A stretch of DNA of 64,000 bases. Source: Palleronia sp. THAF1 (lineage in GTDB: Bacteria > Pseudomonadota > Alphaproteobacteria > Rhodobacterales > Rhodobacteraceae). The stretch lies in contig NZ_CP045420.1 of assembly GCF_009363795.1 (NCBI RefSeq), positions 2,957,001 through 3,021,000 on the forward strand, written 5' to 3'. The position numbers and the translations under genes were made by a program. Below are positions 6,171-12,309 of this stretch, piece by piece (the stretch's first letter is position 1; the number at the start of each line of letters is the position of its first letter). Under the pieces are notes generated by a model that worked only from the letters and a program-made list of their open reading frames with translations, did no database searches and was not told the DNA's origin.

Positions 6171-7523
6171 ATGACCCAAGCCGCGACCCTATCCCAACTC
6201 TCCGCTGATCTCCTGGCAGCAGCGACACGCGCCGGGGCCGATGCCGCCGACGCCATCGCGGTCCGTGACGCATCGCTGTCGATCAACGTCCGCGCCGGAG
6301 CATTGGAAGATGCCGAGCGCAGCGAAGGAGTCGAGATCGGGTTGCGCGTCCTGATCGGTCAGCGACAGGCCTGCGTGTCGGCGTCCGACCTGACGCCCGC
6401 CACGATGCAGGACATGGCAGAGCGCGCCGTCGCCATGGCCCGCGAAGCCCCGGAAGACCCCGGCGCAGGCCTTGCCGATCCGTCACAACTCGCAACCGAC
6501 TTCGACGCCGCAGCCCTTGAGTTGGCCGACGATGCGGCGGAGCCGGACCCCGCGCATCTGGAACGGCTTGCGCTGGAAGCCGAGGCCGCCGCACTCGCGG
6601 TCAAAGGCGTCTCCCGAAGCCAAGGCGCTTCGGCCAGCTACGGCTGGCGCGACATGCACCTTGCCGCGACCAATGGCTTCTCCGCCGGCTATCGTCGCAC
6701 CGGATCCTCCATCTCTGCCGTCGCCATCTCGGGCGAGGGCACCAAGATGGAGCGTGAATACCACGGCGAAAGCCGCACCCACGCCGCCGATCTGCCCGCC
6801 GCCGCCGGAATCGGCACGCTTGCAGGCGAACGTGCCGTCGCCATGCAAGGCGCGCGGCAGGCCAAGACCGGTGCCTACCCCGTTCTGTATGACGAACGCA
6901 TCTCGTCCTCGTTGATCGGCCACCTGCTGATCGCCACCAACGGCAGCTCCATCGCGCGCGGCTCGTCCTGGGCGCGTGATTTGCTGGGCGAAGAGGTGTT
7001 GCCGACCGGCCTGTCGCTTACCGAAGACCCGCACCGCCCGCGCATCGCGGGCTCTCGCCCCTTCGACGCGGAAGGCCTTGCTACCCGACCGCGCGACATC
7101 GTGCGTGACGGTGTGCTGCAAGGCTGGACGCTGGACCTTGCCACCGCCCGCAAGCTGGGCCTGCAAAGCACGGCCAGCGCCGCGCGCGGCACCTCCGCCC
7201 CTCCGTCCCCATCGGTCACCAACGTCACCCTGACCCCCGGCACGCACACCCGCGACAACCTGATCGCGCAGATGGGCACCGGCCTGCTGGTCACCTCGAT
7301 GATCGGCTCGACCATCAACCCCAACACCGGCGACTACTCGCGCGGAGCCTCGGGGTTCTGGGTCGAGAACGGCCAGATCGCCTACCCGGTGAACGAAATT
7401 ACCATCGCCGGCAATCTGCGCGACATGCTGCGCCGCATCACGCCCGCCAACGACGCGCGCGACCACCTTTCGCGCCGCGTGCCGTCCTTGCTGGTCGAAG
7501 GCCTGACGCTTGCCGGCGCATGA
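6171..7523 (+). CDS. TldD/PmbA (TldE) family metalloprotease-like protein
   Basis: 450 residues, the usual length of the family. Characteristic segments include the N-terminal domain (RSEGVEIGLRVLIGQRQA), the central HLLIATNGSSIARGSSW, LSLTEDPHRP followed by SRPFDAEGLATRP, and the C-terminal GTGLLVTSMIGST with ASGFWVENGQIAYPVNEITIAGN. PmbA (TldE) pairs with TldD to form the heterodimeric protease known for microcin B17 maturation and antitoxin turnover. The HExxxH zinc motif of TldD is not seen, which fits the TldE-type partner. No tldD is in the window. The downstream phosphatase gene starts 14 nt before this gene ends. Confidence 0.88.
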   Translation: MTQAATLSQLSADLLAAATRAGADAADAIAVRDASLSINVRAGALEDAERSEGVEIGLRVLIGQRQACVSASDLTPATMQDMAERAVAMAREAPEDPGAGLADPSQLATDFDAAALELADDAAEPDPAHLERLALEAEAAALAVKGVSRSQGASASYGWRDMHLAATNGFSAGYRRTGSSISAVAISGEGTKMEREYHGESRTHAADLPAAAGIGTLAGERAVAMQGARQAKTGAYPVLYDERISSSLIGHLLIATNGSSIARGSSWARDLLGEEVLPTGLSLTEDPHRPRIAGSRPFDAEGLATRPRDIVRDGVLQGWTLDLATARKLGLQSTASAARGTSAPPSPSVTNVTLTPGTHTRDNLIAQMGTGLLVTSMIGSTINPNTGDYSRGASGFWVENGQIAYPVNEITIAGNLRDMLRRITPANDARDHLSRRVPSLLVEGLTLAGA

Positions 7524-8274
7524 CCTGGCCCTTCTGACCGATGCCGCAGAAATGGGAGGCAAGATCGCGCTGCAACACTGGCAGCGCGATCCCAAGGTCT
7601 GGACCAAGGACGACGACAGCCCCGTCTCGGCCGCCGACCTCGCGGTCGACGAAGCCATCCGCGACGCCCTGCTGGCCGAACGCTCCTACGCGTGGATGTC
7701 AGAGGAGACGCCCGACGACCTGTCGCGCCTGAATGCCCAACACTGCTTCATTCTCGACCCCATCGACGGCACGCGTGCCTTTCTGAAGGGCGAAGAAAGC
7801 TGGTCCGTCTCGCTTGCCGTCACGACTGGGCCAGATGTCACCGCCGCCGTCGTTCATCTGCCCGCGCGGGGCCTGACCTATACCGCCGACACCACCGGCG
7901 CCTGGCTGAACGGTGATCCGATCACCTGCGCGGACCTTGCGGAAACCCGAGGCGCCCGCGTCCTTGCCAACAAAGCGGTTTTCGATGCCAAACACTGGCG
8001 CACAGACCCCGGCTTCAAACGTATCTTCCGCCCGTCCATCGCCTACCGCATGGCCTGCGTCGCCCATCCCAAGGCCGACGCCATGCTGACCTTCCGAAAC
8101 GCTTGGGATTGGGACATCGCCGCCGGGACCCTGATCGCCCAAAGCGCCGGGGCCCGCGTGACCTCCCGCACAGGCGCGGCGTTGCGGTTCAACTCGGCCT
8201 CCCGCACCAATGACGGCGTCATCGCCGCGAACCCTACGCTGCACGCGGCAATCCTGGGCTGCGTTTCTAGCTAG
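7510..8274 (+). CDS. Inositol monophosphatase / CysQ-like phosphatase
   Basis: 254 residues. The Mg-dependent phosphatase signature is complete: DDDSPVSAADLAVDEAI, SEETPDD, DPIDGTRAFLKG (metal ligands Asp, Asp and the following GT) and AWDWDIAAG near the C-terminus. Members of this family act on inositol phosphates, 3'-phosphoadenosine 5'-phosphate or histidinol phosphate; the sequence does not decide which. I chose the TTG at 7510 because it keeps the whole first helix (LLTDAAEMGGKIAL). The first ATG, at about 7551, would cut into it. The 14-nt overlap with pmbA suggests translational coupling. Confidence 0.88.
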   Translation: MPAHDLALLTDAAEMGGKIALQHWQRDPKVWTKDDDSPVSAADLAVDEAIRDALLAERSYAWMSEETPDDLSRLNAQHCFILDPIDGTRAFLKGEESWSVSLAVTTGPDVTAAVVHLPARGLTYTADTTGAWLNGDPITCADLAETRGARVLANKAVFDAKHWRTDPGFKRIFRPSIAYRMACVAHPKADAMLTFRNAWDWDIAAGTLIAQSAGARVTSRTGAALRFNSASRTNDGVIAANPTLHAAILGCVSS

Positions 8275-8364
8275 CACTACCGCGCATGGGTATTGCCAGA
8301 TGCACCCCGATATCTGATTACAAAAGAGAAAAGCGGGCGCTACCCGAAGGATAAGTCACCCTTC

Positions 8365-8394
8365 TGGACAAAATCTCGTCACACTCCATATACT
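8365..8394 (+). promoter_or_regulatory. Candidate sigma-70 promoter of the RsbQ-like/HWE kinase operon
   Basis: In the 189-nt gap before the hydrolase gene, TGGACA (8365-8370) and TATACT (8389-8394) stand 18 nt apart. Each hexamer differs from the consensus by one base. The predicted start would lie about 60 nt upstream of the ATG at 8464. The surrounding 8320-8400 stretch is richer in A and T than the flanking genes. Confidence 0.5.
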
Positions 8395-8463
8395 AGCATC
8401 GCAGCAATCACACACCTTACGCAGGGAAGAACCTGCTCGATCCAAAACGGGAGCTGAGAGCCG

Positions 8464-9270
8464 ATGCGGTTCGTTGAACGCAATGCTGTTTCTGTCAGCG
8501 GGCGCGGCGCGGTACCGATTGTCTTTCTGCACGGCTATGGCTGCGACAGCGGTATGTGGCGCGCCGTCCTTCCGGCCTTTCAGGACGATTTCAAGGCCAT
8601 CACCTACGATCTGACGGGATACGGACGCTCTCATACCGCCGACTACGATCCCGAGCGCTACGCCTCTCTCGAAGCCCACGCCGACGATCTGATCGCGATC
8701 ATCGAAGAGCTTGATCTGCGCGATGTCATTGCAGTCGGCCATTCTGTCAGTGCCATGACCGTCGGACTGGCCGCGAAACGGCGGCCTGACCTGATCTCGC
8801 GCCTTGTCATGGTCTGCCCCTCTCCCAGCTACGTCGACGACGGCGACTACGTTGGCGGCTTTCTTCAGGAAGACCTGCATAGCCTTCTAGATATCGTGGA
8901 TTCGAACTATCTGGGCTGGTCGCGACAGATGGCGCCGCAGTTCATGGGCGCGCCGTCCCAACCCAAGCTGGGCGAAGAACTGGTCGACAGCTTTTGTCGG
9001 ACCGATCCGGATATCGCGCGGCATTTTGCGAAGGTGACCTTTCTGCACGACCACCGCGCCGAGGTGAAGGATATCAAGCAGCCGACCCTGATCCTGCAAT
9101 GCCACGATGATGTCCTTGTACCACCGCAGGTCGGCGACTGGATGGTGGCCAACATGCACGACGCCACGCTGACCGTTCTGGAGGCAACAGGCCACTGCCC
9201 GCATATGAGCGCGCCGAACAGGACGTCTGACGCCATCCTGACCTTCCTGCACGCGCCCGCCGCAGCCTGA
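8464..9270 (+). CDS. RsbQ-like alpha/beta hydrolase (stress-signalling type)
   Basis: 268 residues. The fold is shown by VFLHGYGCDSGMW, the nucleophile elbow G-H-S94-V-S (residues 92-96), an Asp in the CHDDVLVPP segment near 215 and the GHCPH histidine motif near 244-247. Several stretches are hallmarks of RsbQ and its plant relatives D14/KAI2: DLTGYGRS, SPSYVDDGDYVGGF, NYLGWSRQMAP and GHCPHMSAP. In Bacillus subtilis, RsbQ is needed for the PAS-domain phosphatase RsbP to activate sigma-B under energy stress. Here the next gene, 6 nt downstream, is a two-PAS histidine kinase, so this protein probably supplies or processes a small ligand for that sensor. The ligand is unknown. A promoter-like sequence precedes it at 8365-8394. 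Confidence 0.9.
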   Translation: MRFVERNAVSVSGRGAVPIVFLHGYGCDSGMWRAVLPAFQDDFKAITYDLTGYGRSHTADYDPERYASLEAHADDLIAIIEELDLRDVIAVGHSVSAMTVGLAAKRRPDLISRLVMVCPSPSYVDDGDYVGGFLQEDLHSLLDIVDSNYLGWSRQMAPQFMGAPSQPKLGEELVDSFCRTDPDIARHFAKVTFLHDHRAEVKDIKQPTLILQCHDDVLVPPQVGDWMVANMHDATLTVLEATGHCPHMSAPNRTSDAILTFLHAPAAA

Positions 9271-9276
9271 TCGCGT

Positions 9277-10611
9277 ATGCAGCCAACAAGCGATCTTGAA
9301 GATTGGCCATGCGGATTGATCGATCTCGACGGCGCGGGGCGCGTGTTGACCATGAACGGCCAGATGAAAGCATGGCTTGGCCTGGACGACGATCAACCCG
9401 GCCTGACCCTGCACGACCTGCTGCCGCGCGCCGTGCGCATCTATTTCGAAACGCACCTGCGTCCGTTGCTGATCGTCGAAGGCAAGCTGAGCGAAGTTTC
9501 CGTCGATTTCCTATGCAGCGACGGCACCCGCTTGGGAACATACCTGAACGCCGTTGCGGATCGTTTGGACGGCAAGCTGACTCGCATTCGGATGGCGGTC
9601 TTTCGCAACGAAACCCGCAAGGCGTTCGAGCAAGAGCTGATTGCACGCCGCCGGGAAAGCGACCTGTTCAAGGTACTCGTGGCGTCATCGCCTCAGGCCA
9701 TCGTCTCGATCGACGACGGGCAAATGATCCGCAGTTGGAACCCCGCCGCGACAAGACTCTTCGGATACGACGCGGAGTCGGTCATCGGGCAGCCCATCCG
9801 ATCCATCCTGCTGTCATCCGAGATGCACGCGCCGTTCGAGGCCGCACTTGCACGGGCCACGGCCGGTGAAATCGTGCGCGACGAGACGGTACGCATCCAC
9901 CAGAACGGGCACCCGGTCGACGTCGAAGTCTCGATCGCCGTCGTCCACGATGAAATCGGCAAGGTCTCCGGCTTCATGCTGACCTTCATCGACATCAGTC
10001 ATCGTAAGGCGGCCGAAGCCGAAGCCAGCAACTTGCTTGAGGAACTCAACCACCGGTCCAAGAATATCCTCTCCATCGTTCAGGTGATCGCACGGCAGAC
10101 CGGGCGTTTCCACGACGGCCCCGAGTTTCACAATGTGCTGTCGCAGCGCCTCGCCAGCCTGATCTCCAATCAGGAAAGCCTGATTCACAAGCAGGGCCGC
10201 ACCGCCGACCTGGGTCATTTGGCAAAAACGCAGTTTTCGCATTTGATCGATCCCAAGGGCGATATCGTGACACTCGAAGGACCGCCAGTTCAGCTGAATC
10301 AGCAAGCGGCGCAGGCCATCGGAATGGCGATCTTCGAGCTGGTGACCAACGCCGTGAAATACGGCTCGCTGTCACAACCTGATGGCCGCGTCCTGCTGAC
10401 ATGGACGGTCGTGGAAGAGGATGAACCAGGGCTGAAGATGACGTGGCAGGAGGAAGGCGGCCCTGCGATAGCTGCCCCCGCACGTCGGGGCTTCGGCTCG
10501 CAGGTCACCGGACCAATCCTGGAGGGCGTGACTCATGGCCAGACAACGCGCGACTACGTGGCAAGCGGCTTTGTATGGACATTTTCCGCGCCGTTGGATC
10601 GACTCTGCTGA
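9277..10611 (+). CDS. PAS-PAS sensor histidine kinase of the HWE/HisKA_2 group
   Basis: 444 residues, no transmembrane helix, so a cytosolic sensor. A first PAS-like domain spans about 8-110 and a canonical one about 128-245 (SSPQAIVSIDDGQMIRSWN through MLTFIDISHRKAAE). The phospho-acceptor is H259 in EELNHRSKN. The ATP lid region has N358 in FELVTNAVKYGSLS, and W390-Q-E392 in the MTWQEEGGP segment gives the Trp-x-Glu that names the HWE group. RRGFGSQV is the G box. No receiver domain is attached and no response regulator is adjacent. Kinases of this type in alphaproteobacteria often act on PhyR of the general stress response or on single-domain receivers. Pairing with an RsbQ-like hydrolase suggests its PAS domain reads a ligand made by that enzyme. 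Confidence 0.92.
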   Translation: MQPTSDLEDWPCGLIDLDGAGRVLTMNGQMKAWLGLDDDQPGLTLHDLLPRAVRIYFETHLRPLLIVEGKLSEVSVDFLCSDGTRLGTYLNAVADRLDGKLTRIRMAVFRNETRKAFEQELIARRRESDLFKVLVASSPQAIVSIDDGQMIRSWNPAATRLFGYDAESVIGQPIRSILLSSEMHAPFEAALARATAGEIVRDETVRIHQNGHPVDVEVSIAVVHDEIGKVSGFMLTFIDISHRKAAEAEASNLLEELNHRSKNILSIVQVIARQTGRFHDGPEFHNVLSQRLASLISNQESLIHKQGRTADLGHLAKTQFSHLIDPKGDIVTLEGPPVQLNQQAAQAIGMAIFELVTNAVKYGSLSQPDGRVLLTWTVVEEDEPGLKMTWQEEGGPAIAAPARRGFGSQVTGPILEGVTHGQTTRDYVASGFVWTFSAPLDRLC

Positions 10612-10647
10612 AGACGATGTGCCGGGCATAACCTTGGGACGTCTTTT
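10611..10647 (+). terminator. Weak candidate intrinsic terminator after the HWE kinase
   Basis: AAGACG at 10611-10616 can pair with CGTCTT at 10640-10645 and the right arm runs into TTTT. The stem is only 6 bp and the loop is long, although TGCC-G-GGCA inside the loop can form a second small stem. Placement directly after the stop codon is right for a terminator, but the energy is likely modest. Confidence 0.3.
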
Positions 10648-10916
10648 GCTCCCTGCACTCTGCGAACACTCTCGCTGAACGCCGAAGATATCGCTCTCCG
10701 GGTAGACTGGCCGGCGGGACCGCGGGACGACGAGCGGACAGATCATGCCCACTCTCGTCGGGCCACCTTGCTGTACATCGGCCAGACGCTGCCACGACAT
10801 CCACCCACCAAATGCCCTACGCACACCCTACCCGCGCTGCACATTTGCCCGACGTCCGCTGCACGCTTGCGGGACGGATGCGGGACGGCCTAGACACAGA
10901 TCAAAGGAGAACCCCC
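10648..10916. other. Intergenic region without a recognisable gene
   Basis: The 305 bases between the kinase stop and the DUF4170 start contain no frame with protein-like composition. Apart from the weak terminator at its left end and AAAGGAGA just before 10917, I see only C-rich sequence (for example around 10800-10870). A promoter for the lipid A operon is expected here, but no convincing -35/-10 pair stands out. Confidence 0.4.
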
Positions 10917-11162
10917 ATGACCCAACGCCTGCACCTCGTTTTCGGCGGTGAGCTGATCGATCCGTCCAAGAATGCCTTCAAGGACATCAAGGACATCCAC
11001 ATCGTCGGCATGTTCCCCGACTACGCCAGCGCCTATGACGCGTGGAAGACCAACGCCCAGAAGACCGTCGACAACGCCCACATGCGCTACTTCATCGCCC
11101 ATCTGCACCGCATGATCGACGAAGAGATCGACGGCTCGCCGACAGAGGCGCTCGACGGCTGA
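10917..11162 (+). CDS. DUF4170 domain-containing protein
   Basis: 81 residues. The ATG at 10917 follows AAAGGAGA with ideal spacing, and the frame upstream of it is low-complexity and not protein-like. The segments LHLVFGGELIDPSKNAF, VGMFPDYASAYDAWK and MRYFIAHLHRMIDEE match the small alphaproteobacterial DUF4170 family, which is commonly found just before waaA-like and lpxK genes. The same order occurs here, with the waaA-like start 10 nt downstream. A role in lipid A or LPS assembly is suggested by this linkage only. No catalytic motif is visible. Confidence 0.8.
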   Translation: MTQRLHLVFGGELIDPSKNAFKDIKDIHIVGMFPDYASAYDAWKTNAQKTVDNAHMRYFIAHLHRMIDEEIDGSPTEALDG

Positions 11163-11172
11163 TCGCCGGTCC

Positions 11173-12309
11173 ATGCCAGACCTGTCCCTGACCTTGCTGC
11201 GCCACCGGCTGGCCGCCAGCCGGGAATCGGCACGCCGCCCGCACCCTGCCATGGCAAGCGCACCGCGTCCCGATGGGCGGCTTTTGTGGGTACATTACGG
11301 CGCAGGGGCCAGCGTTCACCCCACGGGGCTGGTGTTGGACCGCCTGCGCGACGAGCTGTCGGATCTGTCCATCCTGACCACCGGAATGGGCGCGCCAGAG
11401 CGCCTGACTGCTCTCGCCCCCGCCGATACCGCCACCGATGCCGTGGCGTTTTTGGATCACTGGCGCCCCTCTGCCGCGCTGTTCTGCGGGGCCGACCCCT
11501 TCCCGCTTCTGTGGGAGATCGCCCTGTCGCGCGGCATTCCCCTGCTGGCCGCTGACACCGATCCCGCGCGGATGGCGCTGGCTTTGGTCAAGCCCATGGC
11601 GCAGTTCGACGCGGTGATGGCCCGCGCCCCCGATCCGCGCCTCGGAGCGGTGGTCGAGGTCTCCGGCCCTTTTGCACAGGTCGCCGCGCCGCCCGCCGTT
11701 GCAGCGAAGGTGCTCCAGGCAGCCATCGACCGTATCGGAGCGCGGCCCATCTGGCTGGCGTTGAACACCGCGCCAGAGGAGGTGTCGCTGGTGCTGGACG
11801 CGCACCGCCGCGCGGCACAGATGACCCACCGTTTGCTACTGATACTGATGACCGAGGATGACGCAGAGGCCGGTGAGGCGCTAGAGGCGTCCGGTTTGCG
11901 CTGGCAGGTGACCAATACGGCCCCAGTTGCCCCCGATACGCAGGTCATCCTGGCAGATCGCGATCCGGGTCTGTGGCTGCGCCTTGCGCCAGTTGCCTTC
12001 TTGGGCGGCACGCTTGCGACCACCGGCCCCGTCGCACCCGTTGCGATGCCGGCCGGGCTTGGTGCAGCGATCCTGACCGGCCCACGCCTGGGGGACGATC
12101 CGGACATGCTGCAAAGTCTGCTGGACGCCGATGGCGCACGTCGCGTGACCGATGCGGACAGCCTTGGCACGCAGGTGGAACGCCTGCTGAACCCGGAAGA
12201 AGCCGCAGCGCTTGCACACAACGCGTGGACCGTGACGACCGAAGGCGCAGAGGCCAGCGCGCGCCTGTTTTCATTGCTGGACGACACGCTGGCGGGCGTG
12301 CCCGAATGA
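11173..12309 (+). CDS. WaaA/KdtA-like glycosyltransferase, probably catalytically altered
   Basis: 378 residues, shorter than classical Kdo transferase (about 420), with no N-terminal membrane anchor. Overall order and spacing follow WaaA: RLLWVHYGAGASVHP at about 37-50, LTTGMGAPERL, a second domain starting RPIWLALNTAPEEVSLVLDAHR, and a VAFLGGTLATTGPVAP segment. Key family motifs are eroded. The HxxSxGE motif with the catalytic Glu reads HYGAGAS here, and the GGHNxLEP-type motif before the last helix is absent. It may be a non-catalytic partner, a divergent transferase or a second WaaA paralogue. It sits between DUF4170 and lpxK and overlaps lpxK by ATGA at 12306-12309, so it is co-translated with a lipid A kinase. 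Confidence 0.75.
   Translation: MPDLSLTLLRHRLAASRESARRPHPAMASAPRPDGRLLWVHYGAGASVHPTGLVLDRLRDELSDLSILTTGMGAPERLTALAPADTATDAVAFLDHWRPSAALFCGADPFPLLWEIALSRGIPLLAADTDPARMALALVKPMAQFDAVMARAPDPRLGAVVEVSGPFAQVAAPPAVAAKVLQAAIDRIGARPIWLALNTAPEEVSLVLDAHRRAAQMTHRLLLILMTEDDAEAGEALEASGLRWQVTNTAPVAPDTQVILADRDPGLWLRLAPVAFLGGTLATTGPVAPVAMPAGLGAAILTGPRLGDDPDMLQSLLDADGARRVTDADSLGTQVERLLNPEEAAALAHNAWTVTTEGAEASARLFSLLDDTLAGVPE

Follow-up and report, generated by a model that had tools for sequence, protein, structure and literature searches.

The RsbQ-PAS module was described by Nadezhdin, Brody, and Price (2011, PMC3183031), who compiled 45 adjacent RsbQ and RsbP-PAS pairs with a phosphatase (PPM), a histidine kinase, or a GGDEF domain as output and with an extra PAS domain in five of the 45 proteins. 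In this module, the gene for the RsbQ-type hydrolase, its catalytic triad intact, lies directly upstream on the same strand, and the RsbP-type PAS domain is the most N-terminal domain of the partner and does not have the DIT ending. That work provides evidence that RsbQ touches RsbP-PAS via its F-alpha helix, reports that alanine mutants of RsbP L48, F55, Y59, and E72 are null, and considers two models, in which the hydrolase either delivers a product or is itself the sensor. As described there, a target of the module is known only in B. subtilis, and in 2011 it was not yet known which signal acts on the RsbQ-RsbP pair. The pairing of RsbQ with a PAS protein, including kinase outputs in Gram-negative bacteria, was thus already published, and we do not regard it as novel.

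In alphaproteobacteria, HWE/HisKA2 kinases coordinate activation of the general stress response (PMC12148442). Of the LOV-HWE kinases, LOVHK passes phosphate to PhyR and LovR, and EL362 passes it to LovR only, not to PhyR (PMC4438053). For the HWE kinase PhyK of Brucella, earlier studies gave no evidence of direct regulation through EcfG, and the data of PMC12354254 itself on PhyK and EcfG are mixed; the same paper describes the HWE kinase RsiC of Sinorhizobium as both activating and repressing the response. R. sphaeroides PhyR is reported to have a narrow role (PMC5830050). In the accessible text of one review, RsbQ and the alphaproteobacterial systems are treated side by side and unlinked (PMC4598750), and neither HWE nor HisKA occurs in the main text of PMC3183031. 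A search covering mostly papers available without subscription returned no publication joining RsbQ and HWE, and the only match for PhyR, HWE, hydrolase, and PAS domain together concerns Brucella PhyK.

Here, we analyze a gene pair from Palleronia sp. THAF1 (Rhodobacteraceae), contained in a window of 64,000 nucleotides (contig NZ_CP045420.1, positions 2,957,001 to 3,021,000); coordinates refer to this window unless another record is named, and all features of the pair lie on the + strand. The pair comprises an RsbQ-type alpha/beta hydrolase of 268 amino acids (8464..9270), assigned by its reading frame, Pfam, and structure-database and alignment comparison, and a PAS-PAS-HWE histidine kinase of 444 amino acids (9277..10611), assigned by Pfam, alignment, and an AlphaFold model. 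Both reading frames lie where the initial annotation had placed them. Its spacing of 6 nt is likewise correct, but it had measured this distance from the start of the hydrolase gene, whereas it is the end of that gene, at 9270, that precedes the kinase start at 9277 by 6 nt. The stretch between the preceding cysQ-like gene and the pair (8275..8463, +) contains a likely ribosome-binding site, GGAG, recognized by eye at 8450-8453.

In a sequence search of solved structures, B. subtilis RsbQ (1wom) was the top relative of the hydrolase (E 9.6e-75), followed by Olei00960 (3qvm), 7ukb, and plant KAI2/D14. The nucleophile S94 (codon 8743..8745, placed by alignment) and the motifs YVDDGDYVGGF, NYLGWS, and GHCPHMS, listed early on as RsbQ/D14/KAI2 hallmarks, are all present. 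Together with S94, the catalytic residues D216 (9109..9111; column invariant in 29/29) and H244 (9193..9195, by alignment) form a triad whose columns are kept in all 29 aligned hydrolases, a set consisting of the window protein, 23 proteins from sampled genomes, two from named genomes, and three from plasmids. By sequence, the protein is an intact RsbQ-type enzyme. KAI2 and D14 are the plant karrikin and strigolactone receptors, acting on other partner proteins. They belong to the same hydrolase family as the window protein and have what we take to be the same catalytic triad, but the window hydrolase is nearer to RsbQ than to the plant receptors and has a PAS kinase as its partner.

The kinase begins with an RsbP-type PAS domain, PAS1 (residues about 10-112; 9304..9612), delimited by the model and residue mapping, with a long helix at residues 51-68 that carries Y56, F57, H60, and P63. 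It is followed by PAS2 (residues 131-244; 9667..10008), an ordinary S-box PAS found by Pfam and ending DIS, and by the HWE phospho-acceptor domain, also found by Pfam (residues 256-336; 10042..10284), with the phospho-acceptor H259 (codon 10051..10053) identified by alignment. The HWE-type ATP-binding domain, with approximate limits at residues 337-440 (10285..10596), was recognized in the alignment by E354-x3-N358 and W390-Q-E392, the latter an instance of the W-x-E motif, which we take to be a mark of the HWE class. The HWE_HK profile matched with E 2.1e-15 and 57.6 bits, against a cut-off of 22.8, and the class marks are H259 in the H-box and E354 substituting for the first N-box Asn, following the HWE/HisKA2 definition of PMC12148442, together with W390-Q-E392. 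The definition in PMC12148442 also includes a long ATP lid and an R-box with a conserved Arg. W390-x-E392 and N358 are kept in all 11 aligned kinases, that of the window included, and H259 in 10 of them. In the partner kinase of locus L052 (7122-8471 of that record), the phospho-acceptor His is replaced by Ser and the next conserved residues are altered too, which, judging from the alignment, perhaps marks a pseudokinase or a decaying copy.

Pfam missed PAS1 in the window kinase, reporting a single PAS at 131-244. An N-terminal PAS was nevertheless found by Pfam in relatives (L041, residues 17-116; L043, 20-120; L103, 17-100), and in the AlphaFold model of the window kinase (mean pLDDT 83.4, pTM 0.45) residues 13-110 form strands and helices in PAS order. 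The two PAS domains, H259, and the W-x-E motif claimed at the outset were thus all recovered, PAS2 by Pfam, PAS1 by its relatives and the model, and the kinase motifs by alignment; the absence, by eye, of a hydrophobic N-terminal segment agrees with the further claim of a soluble kinase. The nearest structure, both by sequence (E 4.2e-32) and by fold (Foldseek E 4.8e-29), is the Brucella LOV-PAS-HWE kinase 6ph4, with a TM-score of only 0.45, perhaps owing to differing domain placement. Brucella abortus LOV-HK (6ph4, 5epv) and other LOV-HWE stress kinases share with the window kinase the order of sensor PAS, second PAS, and HWE core. They differ in that LOV-HK has a light-sensing LOV domain, whereas the window kinase has an RsbP-type PAS that would receive its input from a separate hydrolase.

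How closely does the pair conform to the published module? As in PMC3183031, the hydrolase gene is directly upstream on the same strand with its triad intact, and the RsbP-type PAS is the most N-terminal domain; PAS1 ends FRNETRK and PAS2 ends FIDIS, so that by eye a DIT ending is absent. PAS1 fits eight of nine class residues (C12, I15 as a hydrophobic residue, L49, R54, Y56, F57, H60, and E73), with G87 at class position P86, or seven of nine if class position 13 must be Leu; class positions were assigned from the residue spacings given in the text of PMC3183031 rather than from the RsbP sequence, and the residue classes are partly a matter of interpretation. The matched positions include the counterparts of RsbP L48, F55, Y59, and E72. 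Class position P86 is occupied by G in the window protein and three close kin, by C in L031, and by Q in L040, and across the 25 proteins compared the fit was poor in L034, L036, L037, and L047-L049.

Hydrolase and PAS1 also co-vary. Over 19 genomes, their distances correlate with r 0.70, and with a partial r of 0.68 after removal of the PhyR distance, used as a stand-in for species distance (0/5000 permutations); correlations with PhyR itself were 0.21 for the hydrolase and 0.33 for PAS1. Among the HWE genomes only (n=10), r was 0.83 and partial r 0.82 (1/5000 permutations). The 19 genomes exclude L032, L036, L040, L041, and L050, for which the PhyR locus is absent from the data, and L037 (PhyR locus L087), where the N terminus of the partner is not alignable with PAS1. 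On these sequence features, it is close to certain that the window pair belongs to the RsbQ-PAS module. The hydrolase-to-PAS logic put forward in the initial annotation is supported by the module residues and the co-variation, and was already on record with kinase outputs (PMC3183031). The pair differs from the module as described in its HWE output, in the G at class P86, and in the second PAS between PAS1 and the output.

The hydrolase was detected in 9 of 385 genomes of an Alphaproteobacteria sample (E <= 1e-40) and in 17 of 394 genomes of a Rhodobacteraceae sample (E <= 1e-30), hereafter the family sample; two genomes occur in both, leaving 24 distinct hydrolase genomes. In 23 of the 24, a kinase or GGDEF gene follows directly downstream on the same strand, which places the pairing beyond chance; in the exception, L038, the hydrolase is the most divergent of all, at about 30% identity. 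The partners are HWE kinases in nine genomes, HisKA kinases in ten, a HATPase-only protein in one (L035), and GGDEF proteins in three, with none in L038, and the idea that the module is tied to HWE outputs only is rejected by this spread. HWE partners with a second PAS were found in the window, L031, L039, L040, L043, L044, L045, L046, and L052, all within the family, where they account for 9 of 17 partners alongside 6 HisKA and 2 GGDEF; outside the family, none of seven hydrolase genomes has one. A search with the kinase of named genome contigs yielded four loci, one of which, L030, was dropped as a PAS match only. Three further HWE pairs come from named Rhodobacterales, Jannaschia helgolandensis (L028), Neptunicoccus sediminis (L029), and a Loktanella salsilacus plasmid (L102), and L027 and L039 are one locus, counted once. 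A similar hydrolase occurs on 68 plasmid records (E <= 1e-40); of the three whose partners were examined by Pfam, L102, L103, and L105, one has an HWE and two have HisKA kinases, and a plasmid search with the kinase itself matched one record. An absence of conserved co-occurrence, which the initial annotation had named as a refutation, was thus not observed: the pair with an HWE kinase is present at 12 loci (nine sampled and three named records). The HWE output of the RsbQ-PAS module is the new element here.

In a tree of the 29 hydrolases, the 12 HWE-coupled ones form one side of a branch with support 88/90 and fall into two subclades, each strongly supported at 100/99. When the kinase cores from these loci were placed with 26 other HWE/HisKA_2 kinases, they separated into two clades; of the 26, 20 were hand-picked from the family HWE_HK list and six come from the THAF1 genome; an AU test against a single kinase clade was borderline (p 0.047). 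On a single origin of HWE coupling, the hydrolase tree favors one group and the kinase cores two clades, and the case between them is borderline.

In the window, the pair is flanked by genes for a cysQ-like phosphatase and a DUF4170 protein, and the kinase is an orphan. The genes tldD, cysQ-like phosphatase, DUF4170, and waaA (kdtA)-like, the last named from sequence, form a block (6171-12309) that is split here by the pair and is contiguous in several sibling species. In 13 other species of the genus, DUF4170 was found shortly past cysQ in six, waaA without DUF4170 in two, and neither in the short stretches past cysQ of the remaining five. The hydrolase itself is absent from these 13 species at E <= 1e-30 and is thus found in 1 of 14. 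The GC contents of the pair, 0.61 and 0.60, lie inside the variation seen across the window (1-kb mean 0.630, sd 0.029), and its GC3 values of 0.735 and 0.743 compare with 0.775-0.819 in four neighbors. Composition and sporadic distribution in the genus are compatible with horizontal acquisition of the two genes as a cassette, without proving it. Around the 12 HWE loci, in stretches of differing length, no other ORF cluster is common to more than four, frames antisense to the pair aside. On the L. salsilacus plasmid (L102 6305-8795), the genes after the pair encode an ATPase, annotated as gvpD, and another HWE kinase. In genome G531 (L044 12762-16195), a large further ORF for an HWE-like kinase and a lone receiver domain similar to that of PhyR are both found at a distance of about 3.6 kb from the pair.

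The initial annotation had further proposed that the kinase may feed the PhyR-NepR-EcfG pathway. The THAF1 genome encodes the PhyR, NepR, and EcfG that a stress-response kinase requires: genes for a PhyK-like kinase, EcfG, NepR, and PhyR are grouped together some 130 kb away from the window (L002 5575-8945), NepR being named by Pfam and the others by their sequence and position. The PhyK-like kinase is a match to HisKA_2, and the genome has seven HWE_HK and five HisKA_2 matches in total. Among the 394 genomes of the family sample, NepR was found in 188 and HWE_HK in 195; 186 have both, 9 HWE only, 2 NepR only, and 197 neither, so that HWE kinases occur in 9 of 206 NepR-negative and 186 of 188 NepR-positive genomes, raw counts that ignore shared ancestry and are in part automatic through the kinase beside nepR. 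A stricter count required a best HWE match with an exponent of -13 or below, where the nepR-side kinases looked at reach only 1e-7 to 1e-10, and placed NepR in 117 of 123 strong-HWE genomes versus 71 of the other 271; four of the six strong-HWE genomes without NepR are under 90% complete. A smaller test within the sample found HWE kinases in 15/15 NepR-positive and 0/15 NepR-negative genomes. PhyR, sought in the nine HWE-only, the two NepR-only, and nine further genomes, was present in G578 and G540 only. Half of the sample (197/394) has neither NepR nor HWE kinases, which suggests that the general stress response and its sensors may be lost or gained as a whole.

HWE-pair genomes in the family sample are NepR positive in eight of nine cases (Fisher p 0.016 versus the rest, kinship ignored), the exception being G739 at 77% completeness; genomes with non-HWE modules are positive in six of eight (p 0.16, kinship ignored), and those of J. 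helgolandensis and N. sediminis are both positive. A NepR tie specific to the pair did not emerge, as 8/9 pair genomes is no stronger than 186/195 HWE genomes, and the NepR association belongs to HWE kinases at large. G771 (Pseudorhodobacter sp. E13) has only two HWE_HK matches, one of which is the pair kinase; the second is very likely the kinase beside nepR, itself matching HWE_HK.

Local evidence for the link was sought as well. In 11 HWE loci, some of them short stretches, BLAST found no EcfG, NepR, PhyR, or PhyK near the pair but only partial similarities, and none of the four is named in the annotation around the twelfth, L102. With a promoter motif that we assume to be GGAAC-N15..18-CGTT, at most one mismatch allowed, no EcfG promoter was found upstream of the pair in 11 of the 12 HWE loci; the sole match, at the window pair, has one mismatch and overlaps the start codon region. 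The nepR-phyR gap of the THAF1 genome contains the motif with one mismatch. A phyR, nepR, or ecfG neighbor or an EcfG promoter, a mark that would support a PhyR-activating kinase and is not required of one, was therefore not found for the window pair. The proposed link has circumstantial support (HWE-NepR co-occurrence, the THAF1 stress locus, and the known PhyR phosphotransfer of the architectural relative), whereas in the stretches examined gene linkage and an EcfG promoter were not found. Because of the family-wide co-occurrence and the relatives, the module probably feeds PhyR.

We thus favor, with a probability of about 60%, a bipartite cytoplasmic RsbQ-PAS sensor whose HWE kinase acts on PhyR-NepR-EcfG, adding an input to that of the PhyK-like kinase whose gene lies next to phyR. 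By analogy with B. subtilis, the hydrolase would bind or turn over a small molecule and contact PAS1 at its F-alpha helix, whether to deliver a product or to signal that the pocket is occupied; from there, the change would pass through helix 114-136, PAS2, and helix 241-278 to the HWE core and set H259 autophosphorylation. From the family context, phosphate would reach PhyR either straight from the kinase or with the participation of a single-domain regulator, and phosphorylated PhyR would bind NepR and free EcfG. In this way, the alphaproteobacterial general stress response would here be driven by the same input module that Bacillus uses for sigma-B.

The main competitor keeps the sensor but sends the phosphate to a response regulator other than PhyR, of either the single-domain or the DNA-binding kind. 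We consider this clearly less likely, though worth serious attention, as the kinase is an orphan between a cysQ-like phosphatase and a DUF4170 gene, EL362 offers a precedent in which LovR and not PhyR receives the phosphate (PMC4438053), and 14 of the 24 hydrolase genomes have a HisKA, GGDEF, or HATPase-only partner. In three good genomes, G481, G542, and G547 (96-100% complete), HWE kinases occur in the absence of both NepR and PhyR; against this stands the near disappearance of HWE kinases where NepR is missing (9/206 versus 186/188). Alternatively, the kinase might act mainly as a PhyR phosphatase or brake, so that the hydrolase signal would switch the general stress response off. RsiC, an HWE kinase of both signs (PMC12354254), lends this some substance, but we hold it improbable: the retention of N358 and W390-x-E392 in 11/11 aligned kinases and of H259 in 10/11 fits working kinases, although it does not address the net sign.

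That the two genes are mere neighbors, the hydrolase being a metabolic enzyme without functional coupling to the kinase, might be read from the sporadic occurrence of the pair (hydrolase in one of 14 genus species) and from its position within the otherwise unrelated tldD-cysQ-DUF4170-waaA block. Yet the pair stays together in 12 loci around which no other ORF cluster recurs in more than four, frames antisense to the pair aside, and hydrolase and PAS1 co-vary, which leaves coincidental neighborhood a very slim prospect. The reading in which an RsbQ-PAS sensor feeds PhyR remains the one that we prefer.

The pair is a variant of the published module, plausibly one in which the sensor has been wired a second time, to an unrelated general stress response. 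Somewhat short of an even chance, and thus tentatively, we propose that RsbQ and RsbP-type PAS have been connected to two unrelated stress responses, in Bacillus to sigma-B by way of a PPM phosphatase and in Rhodobacteraceae, perhaps twice, to PhyR-NepR-EcfG by way of HWE kinases. If this is true, the RsbQ ligand would be a stress or starvation signal common across phyla; the natural ligand of the plant relative KAI2 is likewise still undiscovered (PMC10504578). The Rhodobacteraceae would then provide a second system for finding the RsbQ signal, in culturable strains and with a predicted and easily measured output, the EcfG regulon, and the general stress responses of distant phyla would have a common sensor despite their unrelated switches.
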